Source of the DNA: Colwellia sp.
GTDB lineage: Bacteria > Pseudomonadota > Gammaproteobacteria > Enterobacterales > Alteromonadaceae
NCBI RefSeq assembly: GCF_013214175.1
Contig: NZ_JABSPA010000003.1
Coordinates: forward strand, 434,001-498,000
Reading direction: 5' to 3'
Length of the DNA stretch: 64,000 bases
Shown here piece after piece: positions 53,752 to 60,573 of the stretch. Below the pieces are notes generated by a model. That model saw only the letters and a list, made by a program, of their open reading frames with translations, ran no database searches and was not told the origin of the DNA. The position numbers and the translations under genes are program-made. Numbering within the stretch: position 1 is the stretch's first letter; each line of letters opens with the position of its first letter.

Positions 53752-53966
53752 CAAATGTTTCTCTAGCAGGTGTTTTTACTTACTTTTGCGTTAAATTCAC
53801 TTGCAATATGCCAGCTATTGACGCGTAAATTAGCCTTGAATTAAGAAAAACTATCAAGATAGATATAGTATTAAGTTATTTGGCTAATAGCTTCAATGAG
53901 TTAAATATATCTTAAACCGAGCTCAGGTTAATTAGCTAATAAAGTTACACTGGAATTTGTTAAGGC

Positions 53967-54148
53967 TAGTTAAAGCGGCTGATACAAAAAGCGCTTAAAT
54001 CTATTTCAGTGGTTTGTTTGCTAACTAACTGACCAACCAATAAGTTTTCCCGTTATTACTCCTTGCGTTAGCCCCAAGTATTGATGACCAAGAGCAAAGA
54101 ATACTTTATCGTGGTTTGGCGCTTGGTAAATTCGCTAAGAGCAATACT
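53967..54148 (-). pseudogene. Decayed 3' fragment of a second D-hydroxyproline oxidase gene
   Basis: On the minus strand this piece matches the last ~150 bases of the intact oxidase gene at 56290-57585, including its stop codon, with many substitutions (for example CAAGAGCAAA, TTTGGCGCTTGG shared). It then jumps to a piece equal to ~56929-56945 (AAATTCGCTAAGAGCAA). The two joined places of the intact gene both carry TTGGCAAAT, so the internal ~490 bases were probably lost by recombination between short repeats. It ends exactly at the element at 54149. Confidence 0.82.
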
Positions 54149-54414
54149 TATACCCGCTCCACTTGAATATGCTCGTTTCAGGAAGCTTGAGCGAATCATA
54201 TTCAAGGCATGTTTTTTGTTAATGGTTATTCCCTTAAAAACAAATGTAACGACGAATATGGTTTGCTCAGGCTTCCCCAAAGGGCTGGTTTATAAACGAT
54301 TTATGTTACGTTATTGATTTCGACAAGGGAATAACCATTCTCTTCAATCAATGCCTTACCTAAAGGCGTTTATAATTCCAGCTGAATCCTGCATCTTCAA
54401 GTGGAACGGGTATA
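54149..54414. repeat. 266-bp foldback element, TATACCCG family, copy 1
   Basis: The ends TATACCCGCTCCACTTGAA and TTCAAGTGGAACGGGTATA pair with one mismatch. Further in, AATGGTTATTCCCTT pairs with AAGGGAATAACCATT, giving a long foldback. It has no convincing coding frame. Its left ~60 bases align with those of the copy at 55767-56077 in the same orientation. Confidence 0.87.
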
Positions 54415-54415
54415 A

Positions 54416-54535
54416 CGCTACCTGGTCAAATGTTTAGAAGAACACAGTCAACCCGAGCCTGACATAGAATCATTGCTACCTTGGGATCTAAAAACTCGGT
54501 GCCAATCTGAAGACGGAAACAAAAAAGCTCCGTAA
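54416..54535 (+). pseudogene. C-terminal remnant of an IS66-type transposase
   Basis: A frame without a start begins just at the element border: RYLVKCLEEHSQPEPDIESL, then LPWDLK, ending at TAA 54533-54535. The 'YLxxxL...DIESLLPW' pattern is the usual end of IS66 TnpC transposases. Only ~39 codons remain. It marks a former insertion sequence beside the DHDPS-like gene. Confidence 0.55.
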
Positions 54536-54550
54536 AAACGGAGCTTTCTC
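54523..54550. terminator. Terminator after the DHDPS-family gene
   Basis: AAAGCTCCGT-AAAA-ACGGAGCTTT is a 10-bp stem, 25 bases beyond the minus-strand stop codon. On the minus strand it is followed by TTTTTTGTTTCC, a good terminator. Confidence 0.87.
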
Positions 54551-54570
54551 TTTTTGAATATTTGAAAGGA

Positions 54571-55542
54571 TCAGTCTATTAAATCCAGAAGTTCAAGTCT
54601 TTCTTTTGCTAGACTATATCTTGTGCGGACATCATCAATTTGCAGTTGAGTTAATTTCTTACCAAAGGTACGAAGCCCTCCAGTAGCATCATTATGATGA
54701 ATTCCCATAGCAAACTTAAGATATTCCATAAGCAGCGGTTGAGCATCAAGATATGATATGGAATTCATAGCCTGAGAAATTTTGTTTGCCTCAGCCCATT
54801 CACCTTTTAAAACATATTCCTGCATAGTAACACTAGCTTTTGGGAAGATAGTACCTACACCTGTAATCCCACCGCATGCTCCAGCAAGTCCTGCATGTAC
54901 AGTTACAGTATCAACACCTGCCAATATTTTTAAATCTTTGTTCTCTAACATCAGCGTTTCAATAGTTGAAACATCTGTAGTCGATATTTTAAGAGCAGTT
55001 ACTGCAGGTAGAGCAGCAAGTCTTCTAAGAATATCTGTTGAAAGTGCATGATAGCCGGCTGCATCAGGGTTGTTATAAGGCATAATTGTTACGCCTGCCT
55101 CTTTTGCAGCTATTGCAGCAAGCTCATAGTACGCATACATTTCTTCATCAGAAGGAACCGCCTTAGTTTTTGGCGGCATCACCATGACTGTATCCACTCC
55201 AACCGTTGCGAGTCCTTCAATGATTGTGGCAAGCTCTTCCTTAGTTTCTGCCGCAGCTCCACTGATCAACGGGACATTGTATTCTTTAGCAACCTCAGAA
55301 AGGCATTTAAGTAAAGAAAGACGCTGTTCGTTGCTCAGGTAGCTATTCTCACCCAGAGTACCAGAAGCGACAAGTCCGCCCATTCTGCTTCCGCCCTTTC
55401 CCTGAGCTTTTAAAACATCTGCGGCCTGTTTTTTTGTTACATCAAAGTCAATTTCAAGGGCACCAGATTCTGACTCTTTTAGCCATGTAAACACGGCCGG
55501 CATAACCGTATATCGCCAATCTGTACTATTTGTTTCCATCAT
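54571..55542 (-). CDS. DHDPS-family lyase, probable pyrroline-4-hydroxy-2-carboxylate deaminase
   Basis: A 323-residue class I aldolase-type TIM barrel. Tyr156 (MPYNNPD) and the Schiff-base Lys185 (ALKIST) match the DapA/NanA family. With the hydroxyproline epimerase and oxidase beside it, the expected reaction is deamination of 1-pyrroline-4-hydroxy-2-carboxylate to 2-oxoglutarate semialdehyde. The start is ATG with AGGAAAT just upstream. Base use differs from its neighbours: leucine is mostly CTT instead of TTA, and GGA, GCA and AGA are frequent. It is flanked on both sides by same-family foldback elements, so recent transfer is likely. The protein could also be a non-hydroxyproline DHDPS homologue. 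Confidence 0.8.
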   Translation of the reverse strand: MMETNSTDWRYTVMPAVFTWLKESESGALEIDFDVTKKQAADVLKAQGKGGSRMGGLVASGTLGENSYLSNEQRLSLLKCLSEVAKEYNVPLISGAAAETKEELATIIEGLATVGVDTVMVMPPKTKAVPSDEEMYAYYELAAIAAKEAGVTIMPYNNPDAAGYHALSTDILRRLAALPAVTALKISTTDVSTIETLMLENKDLKILAGVDTVTVHAGLAGACGGITGVGTIFPKASVTMQEYVLKGEWAEANKISQAMNSISYLDAQPLLMEYLKFAMGIHHNDATGGLRTFGKKLTQLQIDDVRTRYSLAKERLELLDLID

Positions 55543-55595
55543 ATTTCCTGTTGTTCAAAAATTACACCAAATAATTGTATCACACATTACGTATG

Positions 55596-55608
55596 GTATA
55601 CAATATAC
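55596..55608. promoter_or_regulatory. GntR-like operator upstream of the DHDPS-family gene
   Basis: GTATACAATATAC lies 54 bases upstream of the DHDPS-family start. The identical 13 bases occur at 57691-57703 between the divergent oxidase and epimerase genes. The palindromic TGTATACA/GTATAC type is typical of FadR/GntR-family sites. A matching GntR gene is not in this window. Confidence 0.75.
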
Positions 55609-55642
55609 AATGTAGATCAAGTAAATTATATCAGTTAAATTA

Positions 55643-55735
55643 CCTTCGGCAAAACCGAGGTTTATTGGGTTACGCCCTCAAAGGGCTTAAGTTAACGCTC
55701 AAAGCGTATTACAAGCCAAACTTCAGTTGATCCCT
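55643..55735. other. Row of three micro-hairpins in a degenerate segment
   Basis: CTTCGG-CAAAA-CCGAG, GCCCT-CAA-AGGGC (55674-55686) and ACGCT-CAA-AGCGT (55695-55707) follow one another within ~65 bases, the last two with the same CAA loop. Nothing here codes convincingly. It resembles the structured end of some mobile element, but I cannot name it. Confidence 0.4.
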
Positions 55736-55766
55736 GAACTCATCATTTTTCTCTTGATTTCGGATA

Positions 55767-56077
55767 TATACCCGTTACCATTCAAGATGCATGTTTCAGA
55801 GTGCTTGAGCAATTTCAATTCAAGGCGCTGTGATGAAATAATGGTTGTTCTGGAGAATAGCTCCTGCATTATCTAATAAGCTACCTCCATGTAGCGTCCT
55901 TCTAAGTCACTGCAACGATGAAGTGATGTTGCTCAAACGCTTATTCGATGGGTTTAAAATGACTTTATGCAGCGTTAAAGAACAAAAATATAGAGTGACT
56001 ATGTTTACGTTCTTCTCCTTGCCTAAAGTCCTTTTAATTCCCACTGAAATCGAGCACTTTGAATGGTAGCGGGTATA
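55767..56077. repeat. 311-bp foldback element, TATACCCG family, copy 2
   Basis: The ends TATACCCGTTACCATTCAA and GAATGGTAGCGGGTATA form terminal inverted repeats. The left ~60 bases (ATGTTTCAG, GCTTGAGC, ATTCAAGGC) align with copy 1 at 54149 in the same orientation. Part of the interior recurs as a fossil at 51616-51660. It and copy 1 bracket the DHDPS-family gene. Confidence 0.85.
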
Positions 56078-56125: not shown

Positions 56126-56287
56126 TTAAATTATGTCAATAAAATTATGCAAGCAAGCTTCAATTTTGGCTGTTGAATTTTCCTTATTCAGTAAGCGTTC
56201 TGTGAGATTTTCTACAAGTGATTTAGTTTGGTCAGGATTTTCAAAAATGAACTGTTCAATTTTTACTGTCGCAGTTGCCTGAGTTAA
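56126..56287 (-). pseudogene. Startless open frame after the oxidase gene
   Basis: Just downstream of the oxidase stop, on the same strand, a frame of ~50 codons without a start codon reads TVKIEQFIFENPDQTKSLVE, then a helical Leu/Lys/Glu-rich end, and stops at 56126. It may be the tail of a disrupted gene. No family is recognised. Confidence 0.35.
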
Positions 56288-56289
56288 TG

Positions 56290-57585
56290 CTAGTTAAAGC
56301 GACTAATACAAAAAGGACTAACGTCAATTTCTGTCTTTTTCTTCGTGACTAATTGACCAATTAGTTTGCCGGTAATAGCTCCTTGGGTTAGACCTAAGTG
56401 CTGATGGCCAAGAGCAAAAAATATTTTATCGTGATTTGGCGCTTGGCAAATAACAGGTAAAGAGTCAGGTAATGACGGGCGACAACCCATCCAAGCTTCT
56501 TGCTCAGATTTTTGTTCTGTTCCCTGTTCAGGAAGCGTCTTTAGAATAAAAGCGGCATTAGCTTTTAACATTTCTGCGCGCTTATAGTTGGGTCGTGCTT
56601 TAAGACCAGCATACTCCACTGTGCCCGCAAGTCTTAAGGTGTTAGCCATTGGGGTAATGATAAAGCGACGTTCAGCAGAAGCTACAGGGCGAGATAATAG
56701 GGCAGACTCTTGTTCATTTATAGGTAAACTCAAGCTATAACCGCGTTCGGCTTCAATAGGCAGGTGATAATCTAAGCCTTTTAGTAACTCTTTTGACCAA
56801 GCACCACAAGCAACAACACAATGATCAAAAGTTAAGTTTTCTTGCTCGGTTTTAACCGTAACACAGGTATCACTCTGAGCTAGTTGTGTGACTGCGCTTT
56901 GTTGGAAAGTCATGCCTTTATTTTTGGCAAATTCGCTAAGAGCAACACTCAATGCTAGCGGGTCAATAGTGTGGGCTACATCGGTAAAGAATAACGAGTA
57001 ATTAATATTGTCGTGTAAGTTTGGCTCAAGCTTAATCGTTTCTGCTCTATCTAATAGTTTTACCGCCACACCTTCATTTTTATAATGCTGATACATGGTA
57101 TCTACTTTATTGTAATTGGTTGTCTCAAAAACTAGCAATGAACCTTGCAATGTCATGAGGTGCTCCATATTTTCCTCTTTTAATAGCGCACTATAGTGAC
57201 CGATGGCATCTTTATTTAATGCTTTTATCGCCACTGTGTTTTTGTCGCGCAAACTTGGTCGCATGTTATTAAAAAACTGCATGAACCAAGGAATGGCTTT
57301 AATAAAGTGTTTGGCAGATAAAGACACAGGACCAAGCGGGTCAAGTAAGAGCTTAGGCATTTGCCATAATAATGAAGACTCGGCGAGTGGAAACACTTGT
57401 TCTGTAGCAAAATGTCCGGCATTAGCCTTAGAGCATCCCAAACCTATACCTTCTTTATCAAGTAAAGTGACTTGATAGCCCAAACTTTGCAATTCAAGGG
57501 CACAGTTTATACCAATAATTCCGGCGCCAATTACCGCAACTGTTTGTTGTTTATTATCCTGTTGTTTGTTTGTTACTGTGTTCAT
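56290..57585 (-). CDS. FAD-dependent D-hydroxyproline oxidase/dehydrogenase (DadA-like)
   Basis: A 431-residue flavoprotein of the DAO/DadA family. The N-terminal dinucleotide motif is GAGIIGINCALEL (residues ~20-32), followed by the family's LLDKEGIGLGCSKANAGHF. A second conserved region lies near GYSLSLPI (~290), and GHQHLGLTQGAITGKLI near the C-terminus closes the FAD site. Context assigns it cis-4-hydroxy-D-proline, made by the epimerase coded divergently, giving 1-pyrroline-4-hydroxy-2-carboxylate. A shared operator lies in the divergent promoter. A decayed 3' copy exists at 53967-54148. Generic D-amino acid dehydrogenase is the alternative. Confidence 0.87.
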   Translation of the reverse strand: MNTVTNKQQDNKQQTVAVIGAGIIGINCALELQSLGYQVTLLDKEGIGLGCSKANAGHFATEQVFPLAESSLLWQMPKLLLDPLGPVSLSAKHFIKAIPWFMQFFNNMRPSLRDKNTVAIKALNKDAIGHYSALLKEENMEHLMTLQGSLLVFETTNYNKVDTMYQHYKNEGVAVKLLDRAETIKLEPNLHDNINYSLFFTDVAHTIDPLALSVALSEFAKNKGMTFQQSAVTQLAQSDTCVTVKTEQENLTFDHCVVACGAWSKELLKGLDYHLPIEAERGYSLSLPINEQESALLSRPVASAERRFIITPMANTLRLAGTVEYAGLKARPNYKRAEMLKANAAFILKTLPEQGTEQKSEQEAWMGCRPSLPDSLPVICQAPNHDKIFFALGHQHLGLTQGAITGKLIGQLVTKKKTEIDVSPFCISRFN

Positions 57586-57690
57586 TAATTTACACCTTGG
57601 GATGGATATAGATCTAAGTTATTGTTGTTAATATGTATTACTGGCAAGTAAAAAGTATAACTAAATTATACTTGCCATTACTTAAGGATT

Positions 57691-57703
57691 GTATACAATA
57701 TAC
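57691..57703. promoter_or_regulatory. GntR-like operator in the divergent oxidase/epimerase promoter
   Basis: GTATACAATATAC, inside ATTGTATACAATATACC, is identical to the site before the DHDPS-family gene. It lies in the 305-base gap 57586-57890, about 105 bases from the oxidase start and 190 from the epimerase start, so one regulator could control both arms. Confidence 0.78.
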
Positions 57704-57890
57704 CTAATCTAAACTAGTAATAGTTTTAACAAAATCAATTGTGGTACTAAACGGAATTGACGTCGAATATAACATCAACAGATAAATCGGCATTACTGAT
57801 AGCTTATTTTTGATAAACGGGGAAGCATAGGAGGAAAACCCTTATGCTTCCCTTAGTCGGTTAAAAAAAGGAATTATTATTGGGGATATT

Positions 57891-58904
57891 ATGGTTAAGG
57901 GCACATTTTTTTGTATCGACGCACATACATGCGGTAATCCGGTTCGGTTAGTAACCAGCGGCCACCCTAACTTAGTGGGTAAAACCATGAGTGAAAAACG
58001 CTTAGATTTTCTCGAGCGTTTTGATTGGATCCGTCAAGGTTTGATGTTTGAACCGCGCGGTCACGATATGATGTCAGGTGCATTTTTGTATCCACCTTGT
58101 AGTGACAATGCCGATGCAGCCATTTTATTTATTGAAACCTCAGGCTGCCTTCCAATGTGTGGCCATGGCACTATTGGTACTATTACCGCAGGTTTAGAAA
58201 ACGGTCTTATCACCCCGAAAACTCCAGGTAAACTCATTGTTGATGTTCCTGCCGGTCAAATTTTTATTGAGTATCAAGAAAAGAATGGCAAGGTTGCTAA
58301 CGTTAAAATATTTAATGTTGCCTCTTACTTAGCACATCGCGATATCACCTTAGATATACCCGGTTTAGGGCAGTTAACGGTTGATATTTCTTATGGCGGC
58401 AACTTTTATGTCATCGTTGAACCGCAAGAAAACTTTCCTGGTATAGATAAGTGGACTGCTGCAGAGATATTGCTGTGGAGTCCAATTGTACGTGAAATAG
58501 CAAGCAAGTCGCTTGACTGCGTTCACCCAGAAGATGCTAGCGTTAATGGCGTCAGTCACGTTTTGTGGACAGGAATACCGCAAACCCAAGGCTCTGATGC
58601 GGCTAATGCGGTTTTTTATGGTGATAAAGCCATAGACAGATCGCCATGCGGTACCGGTACAAGCGCGAGAATGGCGCAGTTATTTGCCAAAGGTGAACTA
58701 GCTGTTGGCGATACCTTTGTACATGAGAGCTATATTGGTAGCCAATTTACCGGCAAGATTGAAGGCGTAGTTGAGATCAATGCTTCAGGTAAGACTATCA
58801 CTGCTATTATGCCGAGCATTCAAGGTTGGGCAAAAGTATTTGGTAAAAACTGTATTACCATTGATGACGACGATCCTTATGCCTTTGGTTTTAGCGTTAA
58901 GTAG
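57891..58904 (+). CDS. 4-hydroxyproline 2-epimerase (proline racemase family)
   Basis: A 337-residue cofactor-independent racemase-family enzyme. Both catalytic cysteines are present: Cys90 in PMCGHGTIG and Cys253 in DRSPCGTGTSA, the Cys/Cys pair of epimerases and racemases. Early motifs IDAHTCGNPVRLV and FEPRGHDMM are typical. In this cluster it would convert trans-4-hydroxy-L-proline to cis-4-hydroxy-D-proline, the first step. Proline racemase cannot be excluded by sequence alone. It is divergent from the oxidase, with an operator between. Confidence 0.9.
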   Translation: MVKGTFFCIDAHTCGNPVRLVTSGHPNLVGKTMSEKRLDFLERFDWIRQGLMFEPRGHDMMSGAFLYPPCSDNADAAILFIETSGCLPMCGHGTIGTITAGLENGLITPKTPGKLIVDVPAGQIFIEYQEKNGKVANVKIFNVASYLAHRDITLDIPGLGQLTVDISYGGNFYVIVEPQENFPGIDKWTAAEILLWSPIVREIASKSLDCVHPEDASVNGVSHVLWTGIPQTQGSDAANAVFYGDKAIDRSPCGTGTSARMAQLFAKGELAVGDTFVHESYIGSQFTGKIEGVVEINASGKTITAIMPSIQGWAKVFGKNCITIDDDDPYAFGFSVK

Positions 58905-59040: not shown

Positions 59041-60573
59041 ATGACGATAACAGGACAGAATTTAATTGCCGGCGAATGGTCAGGCGATACTAAAGGTGGT
59101 TTTAAAGCATTTAATGCCCAAACACACCTTGCTATTGATATTGAGTTTGCTGATGCAACTGAGCTTGAAGTAAATACTGCCATTGTACGTGCAAATGAAG
59201 CATTCACTTCTTATAGCCAATTAAGTGCGGCAAAGCGTGCTACATTCTTACGTGCAATTGGTGCTGAAATTCTTGCTTTAGGTGATGAACTTGTTGAAAC
59301 CGCTTGTGGTGAAACAGGTCTACCGGCCATGCGTATTCAAGGCGAGCGCGGTAGAACGATTGGTCAACTTGGACTTTTTGCTGACTTATTAGAGTCAGGC
59401 GAATACCAAGGTGTTATTGAGCAAGCGAATGCTGACCGTCAACCACTTCCAAAACCAGATACTCGTTTAGGTTATTTACCTTTAGGTGTGGTTGGTGTTT
59501 TTGCTGCAAGTAATTTTCCATTAGCTTTCTCTACTGCTGGTGGCGACACTGCTTCAGCTTTAGCTGCAGGTTGTCCTGTAGTTATGAAAGCACACGCAGC
59601 TCATCCTGCCACTGCTGAATTAGTAGCACGTGCTATCTTAAAAGCGATTGAAAGCTGTAATTTAGACCGCGGTGTATTTTCGCTTATTCAAGGTAAAAAC
59701 TACGCTATCGCTACACAAATAGTTACTCATCCATCAGTTAAAGCGGTTGGTTTTACTGGCTCTGAGCGTGTAGGTATGATTTTACAAGCGCAAATTCACC
59801 AACGAGCTGAACCGATTCCATTTTATGGTGAGCTTGGTAGTATTAACCCACAATTTATTATGCCTAATAAAGTTGACCAAGACGGCGCTGAAATAGCACA
59901 AGGCTTAGTTGCTTCATTAATGATGGGCCAAGGACAGTTTTGTACCAGCCCTGGCGTTTGGGTTGTGGTAGGCAGTGAAGATAGTGCCAACTATCAAACG
60001 TTTATTACTTCGGCAAGCGAAGCATTAGCACAGCAAGCTGCTGGTGTTATGTTAACTCCAGCAATGTGTGCTAGCTACAATAACGCGGTTGCAGAGCGAA
60101 AAGCACTTAGCGGTGTCAGCTTATTAGCAACGGGTAAAACAGGTAATGAACAAGAATGTTCAGCCTCTTTATTTGCTACCGACCTAGCAACATTTGCTAA
60201 AACGCCATTACTACAAGAAGAAGTATTTGGATTCAGTGCTTTAGTTGTTCGTTGTGATGATCAAGCACAAATGATGGAGTTTGTTAGCCTTCTTAAAGGT
60301 AATTTAACCGCCAGTATTCATGGTTTAGAGAGTGACTTAACTGCGTCAAAAGAGTTAAGCCTTAACCTTGCCCATAAAGTAGGTCGCTTGATTTATAATC
60401 AAATGCCTACTGGTGTTGAAGTATGTGCTTCAATGAACCACGGTGGTCCATTCCCAGCATCAACTAATATCAGAACAACGTCGGTGGGCAGTGCAGCCAT
60501 AACCCGCTTTAGACGACCTATCTGTTATCAAAATATGCCGGCAGAGTTGTTACCGACCTTGTTAAAAGATTAG
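59041..60573 (+). CDS. Aldehyde dehydrogenase, probable 2-oxoglutarate semialdehyde dehydrogenase
   Basis: A 510-residue NAD(P)-dependent aldehyde dehydrogenase. ATG at 59041 has AAGTGAG 7 bases upstream; a GTG at 59029 would add four residues. The catalytic Cys lies in GQGQFCTSPG near residue 300, the general base Glu in YGELGSINP near 262, and the cofactor region is FTGSERVG. It matches the 2,5-dioxovalerate dehydrogenase branch, which ends with a ~20-residue PENMP-like tail (RRPICYQNMPAELLP). It would oxidise the last intermediate to 2-oxoglutarate and so feed the TCA cycle. Confidence 0.9.
   Translation: MTITGQNLIAGEWSGDTKGGFKAFNAQTHLAIDIEFADATELEVNTAIVRANEAFTSYSQLSAAKRATFLRAIGAEILALGDELVETACGETGLPAMRIQGERGRTIGQLGLFADLLESGEYQGVIEQANADRQPLPKPDTRLGYLPLGVVGVFAASNFPLAFSTAGGDTASALAAGCPVVMKAHAAHPATAELVARAILKAIESCNLDRGVFSLIQGKNYAIATQIVTHPSVKAVGFTGSERVGMILQAQIHQRAEPIPFYGELGSINPQFIMPNKVDQDGAEIAQGLVASLMMGQGQFCTSPGVWVVVGSEDSANYQTFITSASEALAQQAAGVMLTPAMCASYNNAVAERKALSGVSLLATGKTGNEQECSASLFATDLATFAKTPLLQEEVFGFSALVVRCDDQAQMMEFVSLLKGNLTASIHGLESDLTASKELSLNLAHKVGRLIYNQMPTGVEVCASMNHGGPFPASTNIRTTSVGSAAITRFRRPICYQNMPAELLPTLLKD

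Follow-up and report, generated by a model that had tools for sequence, protein, structure and literature searches.

Xenologous, or non-orthologous, gene displacement is the process in which a gene acquired from elsewhere assumes a function and its resident counterpart disappears, and hydroxyproline, the substrate of the pathway considered here, is a building block of collagen. According to PMC4113996, the deaminase of the hydroxyproline pathway belongs to the DHDPS superfamily, and a 2021 study (PMC7883544) reports this enzyme as missing from the collagen clusters of Colwellia piezophila ATCC BAA-637 and Colwellia psychrerythraea GAB14E. The window analyzed here, a stretch of 64,000 nucleotides from the 5.0-Mb genome of a Colwellia-like bacterium (G000), carries a DHDPS-family gene, hereafter the lyase, beside the oxidase gene of a hydroxyproline cluster. 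This locus very probably reflects a recurrent displacement of the resident (native) deaminase by a foreign analogue. Judged from the sequences compared, the foreign origin, the empty site, the mutual exclusion of the two genes, the remains of the native one and the repetition of the event all appear firmly established. In the proposed scheme, a mobile lyase with flanks of IS200 debris, passing among marine bacteria, would have entered Alteromonadales already having the hydroxyproline pathway and would supply the deaminase step, the conversion of 1-pyrroline-4-hydroxy-2-carboxylate to ketoglutarate semialdehyde; the native deaminase, then redundant, would have been lost through deletion and decay at its own site. 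In the Colwellia clade of the window, the lyase would have landed beside the oxidase, and elements resembling miniature inverted-repeat transposable elements (MITEs) would have arrived later as passengers.

Among 39 Colwellia genomes searched, the same 25 possess both the 4-hydroxyproline epimerase EPIM1 and the flavin adenine dinucleotide (FAD)-dependent oxidase OXID. The native gene is found in 10 of these 25 and the foreign lyase in 14 (damaged in two of them); none holds both, and the one genome with neither, G038, is 87% complete. The native DHDPS-family gene is full-length in all 10. In 8 of them, EPIM1 and OXID flank it on a single contig, and this context is the reason for regarding it as the hydroxyproline-pathway deaminase; the contigs of G030 and G035 break at its position. 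An empty site, which the preliminary description had proposed to look for among relatives, does exist: in G003 (locus L116), where no lyase was found in the genome, the order is EPIM1, native gene, OXID, DUF2956, PAP2 and M13 peptidase, with a gap of only some 10-15 bp between OXID and DUF2956. At loci L117, L118 and L119, 1.2-5.4 kb of other DNA lies between these two genes.

The lyase occupies the window-type locus in 9 of the 14 foreign-gene Colwellia, among them G023, whose lyase match is partial and located at a contig end and which was assigned by the remnant of a second oxidase copy (OXID2) on the same contig. It lies elsewhere in the genome in G005, G007, G014, G021 and G033. In 10 of the 14, the old site still holds fragments of the native gene, recovered by protein search in G005, G006, G007, G015, G018, G019, G023 and G033 and by DNA search in G008 and G011. 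The G008 fragment fuses the first 18 and the last 19 native codons at a short shared TACAACGAAG-like sequence, which is consistent with a deletion between short repeats. In the window, the search turned up no coding remnant of the native deaminase; about 88 nt of the old intergenic region persists.

The foreign character of the lyase is readily apparent from its leucine codons, which the preliminary description had correctly singled out as rich in CTT. This codon accounts for 18 of 37 leucines, a share of 0.486 that ranks first by far among 42 window genes (mean 0.165, standard deviation 0.084). The overall codon deviation also ranks first, with a narrow lead (0.345, next gene 0.338), and the GC content is ordinary (0.42 against a mean of 0.40). 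At fourfold sites, the window lyase is 95% identical to that of Thalassotalea ND16A, 82% to that of Arcobacter, 73% to that of Wenyingzhuangia and 66% to that of Undibacterium. Bacteroidota lyases (81-89% protein identity) adjoin hydroxyproline genes, and the Thalassotalea ND16A lyase has no hydroxyproline gene of the query set nearby. In six Colwellia relatives at the same locus, fourfold-site identity amounts to 90-93% for the lyase and to 48-65% for EPIM1 and 57-67% for the aldehyde dehydrogenase ALDH; MFS values were left out of this neighbor-gene comparison, two pairs being in wrong frames.

The phylogeny of the lyase, which is unrooted, does not follow the species; the preliminary description had named a match to the species tree, like ordinary codon use, as counting against its reading, and neither applies. 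The approximately unbiased test rejects a single clade for the seven lyases of this locus (p 6e-5) as well as a grouping of the window lyase with that of L055 (identical to L127, from the Colwellia metagenome-assembled genome G029; p 1e-7). The L055 lyase groups with Arcobacter (100/100), although it is located at the window's locus, and the fourfold-site identities of this locus to the window are mixed: higher for the lyase (83%), peptidase (88%), SDR (92%) and DUF2956 (90%), and lower for the oxidase (75%), EPIM1 (74%) and PAP2 (65%). It follows that, after the lyase arrived, its alleles were exchanged in one or the other lineage. Collectively, codon use, tree and patchy distribution mark the lyase as an evidently foreign gene. 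With its conserved flanks, IS200 remnants included, it is found at many sites in Alteromonadales and Oxalobacteraceae.

Mutual exclusion extends beyond Colwellia. In a sample of 394 genomes of the order, the lyase occurs in 7, EPIM1 in 41 and a native-type gene in 40. The 41 EPIM1 genomes comprise 6 with the lyase only, 1 with both genes, 28 with the native gene only and 6 with neither (Fisher p 0.0012, uncorrected for kinship), and the lyase is confined to them (7/41 vs 0/353). The lyase search yielded 130 places, of which the best 80 were kept. A further 43 lyase genomes were reached via other loci; four look like repeats with the same coordinates (G441 of G109, G449 of G271, G431 of G033 and G452 of G021), and L066 and L079 were left out of the native-gene and EPIM1 searches. 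EPIM1 is present in 34 of the 43, including all 33 gammaproteobacteria, a full-length native-type protein in 3 (that of G463 only 41% identical), and native fragments in 16 of the 33 gammaproteobacteria. In most lyase genomes, with G007 as an exception, EPIM1, OXID and ALDH are full-length while the native gene is fragmented or absent.

Repetition was assessed on a tree of 87 EPIM1 proteins (40 from genomes with the lyase, 38 with the native gene, 2 with both and 7 with neither), which represents the operon and not the species. The lyase state changes 16 times on this tree. In 13 independent pairs differing in the lyase, the native gene differs in the opposite direction in 10.7 on average (about 11 of 13), in the same direction in 0, and is unchanged in 2.3 (median p 0.001). 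Pseudoalteromonas prydzensis G464 and G465, the plasmid locus L259 and the lyase genomes without EPIM1 were left out, and the Arcobacter row L247 is a long branch flagged by the tool.

A distinct form of native remains is observed in Pseudoalteromonas. At L223, L224, L225, L245 and L259, the native gene persists as an in-frame stub open reading frame of about 59-74 codons, which retains the native start and in most cases native-like last codons. At L259, a 71-residue "hypothetical protein" before the epimerase has such a native-deaminase-like start. In 5/5 of these related loci, the stop of the stub is placed exactly 3 nt ahead of the epimerase start, and an open reading frame of at least 25 residues ending at the same spot also occurs in 8.6% of shuffled sequences. 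The stub is possibly kept for translational coupling.

Regarding the protein itself, the lyase matches the Pfam DHDPS family (PF00701; E = 1.7e-25, 89.8 bits, cut-off 22.1) and falls below the DapA equivalog cut-off (TIGR00674; 100 bits vs 206), and a stronger PF00701 match, a DapA-like gene (270.6 bits), lies elsewhere in the window genome. An AlphaFold model with a middling predicted local distance difference test score (pLDDT 71) gives query TM-scores of 0.66-0.76 to DHDPS/NAL structures among the 50 matches listed; this model contributes the predicted fold and nothing more. Tyr156 (MPYNNP) and Lys185 (LKIS), which we take to be the catalytic tyrosine and the Schiff-base lysine, respectively, are invariant in 16 aligned rows. 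Protein identity to the native Colwellia deaminase is 26-28% where measured. From the exclusion pattern, we infer that the lyase performs the deaminase step. The gene neighborhoods of Bacteroidota agree with this role: the lyase shares a locus with EPIM1 in 32/35 cases, with ALDH in 32/35 and with OXID in 27/35, and a second DHDPS gene resembling the native one was found in none of the 35.

Several observations weigh against displacement by a functional equivalent. The lyase sequence is about equally distant from the native deaminase and from DapA. The lyase is truncated in G014 and frameshifted in G007, with no intact native gene in either. Eight Oxalobacteraceae and one Arcobacter genome carry the lyase without EPIM1 at E<=1e-80, and 11 of the 40 native-type matches of the order sample come from genomes that lack an EPIM1 match at the chosen threshold, so that the native gene may have other uses. 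Two Shewanella have both genes (L019, L193), and 7 of the 87 EPIM1 genomes have neither; among the six neither-gene genomes of the order sample, the completeness of G203 is 80%, and G163 retains fragments of the native gene and has no lyase. The lyase rows of the EPIM1 tree were obtained by lyase searches, and the tree is consequently enriched for the lyase. Finally, the window genome holds a third DHDPS-family gene (G000:C14:376714-377580; L082, L137), which is nearer to the native deaminase (27% identity, E 8e-37) than the lyase is (E 3e-25) and could supply the deaminase step in this genome.

With regard to the damaged lyases, G007 also has a broken aldehyde dehydrogenase, and at L252 (G014) and L253 (G007) the pathway may be dying, or the G007 assembly may contain errors. 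The Oxalobacteraceae genomes with the lyase and without EPIM1 are G448, G453-G458 and G463, that is, 8/8 searched.

These points bear on the alternative that the lyase has another role, the native gene having been lost for other reasons and the C14:376714 gene or another enzyme supplying the step. The deaminase activity is indeed predicted from sequence, and the lyase stands solo in many genomes, EPIM1 being absent from the fetched DNA around it in 25/34 gammaproteobacterial and 9/9 betaproteobacterial loci; the Oxalobacteraceae and the closer C14:376714 gene point in the same direction. This alternative is nevertheless judged unlikely, given the opposite changes in the independent pairs, the restriction of the lyase to EPIM1 genomes in the order sample, its sharing of a locus with EPIM1 in Bacteroidota, and the full-length pathway genes that surround a broken or absent native gene. 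Moreover, the C14:376714-type gene is patchy in Colwellia: it is no general substitute, because no match at E<=1e-15 exists in the lyase genomes G006, G008, G015, G018 and G019, and in G003 it coexists with the native gene. A second alternative, that both genes are ancient in Alteromonadales and were lost reciprocally with no recent transfer, would fit the exclusion taken alone and the two Shewanella that carry both. It is rated as very improbable, since the synonymous identity of the lyase across genera, classes and phyla exceeds that of neighbor genes between most species of the same genus, its nearest relatives cross genera and phyla, and it occurs in so few genomes of the order.

Returning to displacement by a foreign lyase, the layout of the window locus bears on how the gene arrived. 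From left to right, DUF2956 is followed by the OXID2 remnant, a first TATACCCG element, an IS66 tnpC 3' fragment, a hairpin and the lyase; then come the right end of IS200 together with the TnpA C-terminus, another TATACCCG element, the left end of IS200 and OXID1; and beyond OXID1 lie EPIM1, the aldehyde dehydrogenase, a transporter and a second gene of the proline-racemase family. The features are as follows.

53959-54148, minus strand: OXID2, decayed second oxidase 3' end on the DUF2956 side; its aligned blocks match the intact oxidase at 77-78%, and it has lost an internal segment by deletion
54149-54414, no strand: left TATACCCG MITE-like element, 266 bp, inserted at TA; the same site is empty in L055
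54415-54525 (about), plus strand: IS66 tnpC 3'-end remnant, 94-96% identical in L001, L002, L004, L006 and L055
54517-54554, no strand: terminator-like hairpin 3' of the lyase, kept in many loci as judged by eye
54571-55542, minus strand: lyase, DHDPS family, 323 residues (open reading frame and Pfam)
55633-55782, minus strand: IS200 remnant, TnpA C-terminus and right end, 79% identical to the full-length IS200 in L258
55767-56077, no strand: right TATACCCG MITE-like element, within the IS200 remnant; absent in L055
56075-56130, minus strand: IS200 left end, 91% identical over 56 nt to L258
56290-57585, minus strand: OXID1, FAD-dependent oxidase, proposed cis-4-hydroxy-D-proline oxidase; its 3' end is part of a putative recently exchanged block
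57663-57749, plus strand: surviving ancestral oxidase/deaminase intergenic stretch, 82% identical to G003
57891-58904, plus strand: EPIM1, 4-hydroxyproline epimerase (NF010578, 582.6 bits, cut-off 376)
59041-60573, plus strand: ALDH, aldehyde dehydrogenase, proposed ketoglutarate semialdehyde dehydrogenase (profile search)

A 39-codon open segment (56177-56293) is also observed in the stretch from the OXID1 stop to the left end of IS200, with protein identities to the window version of 85% in L055, 79% in L003 and 77% in L002.

The route of entry we infer from the distribution of oxidase sequence; within each lineage, the succession of gain and loss is likewise a deduction. The decayed oxidase 3' end just outside the left element was already recognized in the preliminary description. 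OXID1 codons 401-440 show 97-100% DNA identity when the window is set against each of seven lyase-locus relatives, as opposed to 70-78% in six other Colwellia without the lyase at this locus. Together with the partial second copy, this near-identical 3' end suggests that DNA entered, or was later exchanged, via homologous recombination in the oxidase gene, perhaps when a circle integrated into the resident oxidase by a single crossover. It is also quite possible, at somewhat less than an even chance, that the lyase instead landed in a tandem oxidase duplication, which would likewise leave OXID1 and a 5'-truncated OXID2, and the OXID2 remnants indeed begin at different codons in different species. 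On the other side, the OXID1 block and the division of the OXID2 remnants into two diverged groups would be expected had the 3' end of OXID1 arrived together with the lyase or been exchanged along with it. On its left side, the high-identity block has different limits in different groups.

A candidate carrier is the 244-kb plasmid of Pseudoalteromonas donghaensis (L259, NZ_CP032092.1 220296-226842), typed as mobilizable (MOBH), on which collagenase, transporter, lyase, oxidase, epimerase and aldehyde dehydrogenase lie together. That lyase, oxidase and epimerase are jointly borne by a mobilizable replicon speaks against the duplication alternative, and a mobilizable plasmid is a possible vehicle for the lyase. 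Its match, at 82%, is the only close one among the plasmids of the collection; the remaining 114 records with a match stay below 60% identity. Phage carriage was also considered and dropped, as the lyase gave no match at E<=1e-10 among 50,697 phage records, nor any in viral_contigs, for which two patterns were used.

The preliminary description had further noted that two elements in the same orientation bracket the lyase and the IS66 remnant, which holds, and had proposed that the lyase was carried between them. Both elements have TATACCCG...CGGGTATA ends, each carries its own terminal inverted repeats, and their first 60 nt align in direct orientation at 73%. The TATACCCG 8-mer is not enriched genome-wide, with 141 places (70 forward, 71 reverse) vs 171 for a backward-read control. 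Among 100 places listed of these 141, a hand count gives 12 forward/reverse pairs with lengths of 263-312 bp, an unusual number given the 0.1 or so expected by chance (hand arithmetic, no shuffle). Terminal inverted repeats, ends paired genome-wide and, for the left element, a TA site occupied in one genome and empty in another are thus all found, and we take the elements to be a TA-target MITE of the Tc1/mariner-IS630 type.

A composite transposon of two TATACCCG elements was rejected. The shared orientation around the lyase and the repetition of the family in the genome would favor such a unit carrying the lyase into the pathway, yet this is hardly credible in view of L055, short of a clean excision of both elements there: its lyase and its remnants of IS66 and of the oxidase are arranged as in the window, and neither site holds an element. 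At the left site L055 shows GCGTTAAGTGTT; in the window, the element stands there flanked by TA copies. The protein identity of its six neighbors to the window (peptidase, SDR, PAP2, DUF2956, oxidase and epimerase) is 88-99%. Furthermore, the right element replaces about 415 bp of the IS200 remnant core and, lying within this remnant, is therefore younger than it. Searched by blastn in the first 80 lyase loci, the two elements have related sequence near the lyase only in L001-L004 and, away from the lyase, in L055; the elements are not unique to the window genome. They are evidently late passengers, younger than the lyase. A relative carrying the lyase without the elements removes the carrier claim only: of the earlier proposal that mobile DNA brought in or replaced the deaminase, replacement in a resident pathway stands, with IS200 and IS66 remnants accompanying the lyase, and the two elements drop out as its carriers.

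Turning to these remnants, the identity of the IS200 piece rests on the full-length homologue L258 (PF01797, Y1_Tnp, at 2e-34), and a Pfam search of the short window TnpA pieces alone gives no Y1_Tnp match. The TnpA C-terminus and right end lie directly upstream of the lyase. The right-end motif upstream of the lyase beats the best of 80 shuffles in 22/34 gammaproteobacterial and 7/9 betaproteobacterial loci (several scores narrowly) and in 0/35 Bacteroidota and 0/2 Arcobacter loci. Its presence at many loci indicates that part of the flank, and not the gene alone, has travelled. The IS66 piece is a tnpC 3' end, a longer copy of which in L006 matches DDE_Tnp_IS66_C at 2e-11. The lyase as IS66 cargo was set aside, only tnpC 3' ends being observed, and cargo status in IS200 is unsupported, the lyase lying outside its right end.

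A promoter scan of 54480-55780 gives two promoter-like sites, not above shuffles (mean 3.2); one of them (55652-55625, 10/12) precedes the lyase with its first hexamer within the IS200 right end and is a lead. A terminator scan at the hairpin region gives a count within about one standard deviation of shuffles, i.e., no excess. By eye, a palindromic repeat (CTTACGCAAAATTGCG... type) is seen just before the lyase start in four loci; this or a similar palindrome occurs at L037, L040, L041, L051 and other Undibacterium loci, and a similar repeat lies downstream in several Undibacterium. A bolder reading, which we regard as doubtful, is that the lyase, the IS200 right end with its overlapping promoter-like site and the hairpin form an insulated one-gene unit that works wherever it lands and repeatedly invades hydroxyproline degraders across phyla via plasmids and recombination; hosts would delete their own deaminase and become dependent, and some would keep the dead gene as an epimerase-coupling stub.

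Gene displacement is usually deduced from the finished state, while here native only, both genes, foreign gene with decaying native gene, and foreign gene only coexist. These parallel stages constitute a natural experiment on why one enzyme version wins. They also indicate that "missing" enzymes in collagen degraders can be unrecognized analogues. PMC7883544 describes the same type of collagen/hydroxyproline cluster in both Colwellia strains mentioned at the outset. Both carry the foreign lyase beside the oxidase (L001, L004), which may fill the published deaminase gap in the hydroxyproline pathway of deep-sea Colwellia. In the open-licence literature, judged by titles and the beginnings of abstracts, no publication was found that treats this family of lyases or its part in displacement.

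Compared with IS200 (Y1_Tnp, PF01797), the window shares both ends and the TnpA C-terminus upstream of the lyase, but holds a remnant only, with the lyase outside its right end. The lyase resembles the native-type hydroxyproline deaminase in its context of epimerase, FAD oxidase and aldehyde dehydrogenase and in its superfamily, and differs from the native Colwellia enzyme in its low sequence identity. As in xenologous displacement, a horizontally acquired gene would take over a function and the resident gene is lost. In contrast to that general scheme, the same family acts here repeatedly, in 13 independent pairs, with intermediates visible together, and the incoming lyase lands elsewhere and not in the resident's place. 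Events of this kind are known; what is new is that this one recurs, that its intermediates can be seen and that one gene is so portable.

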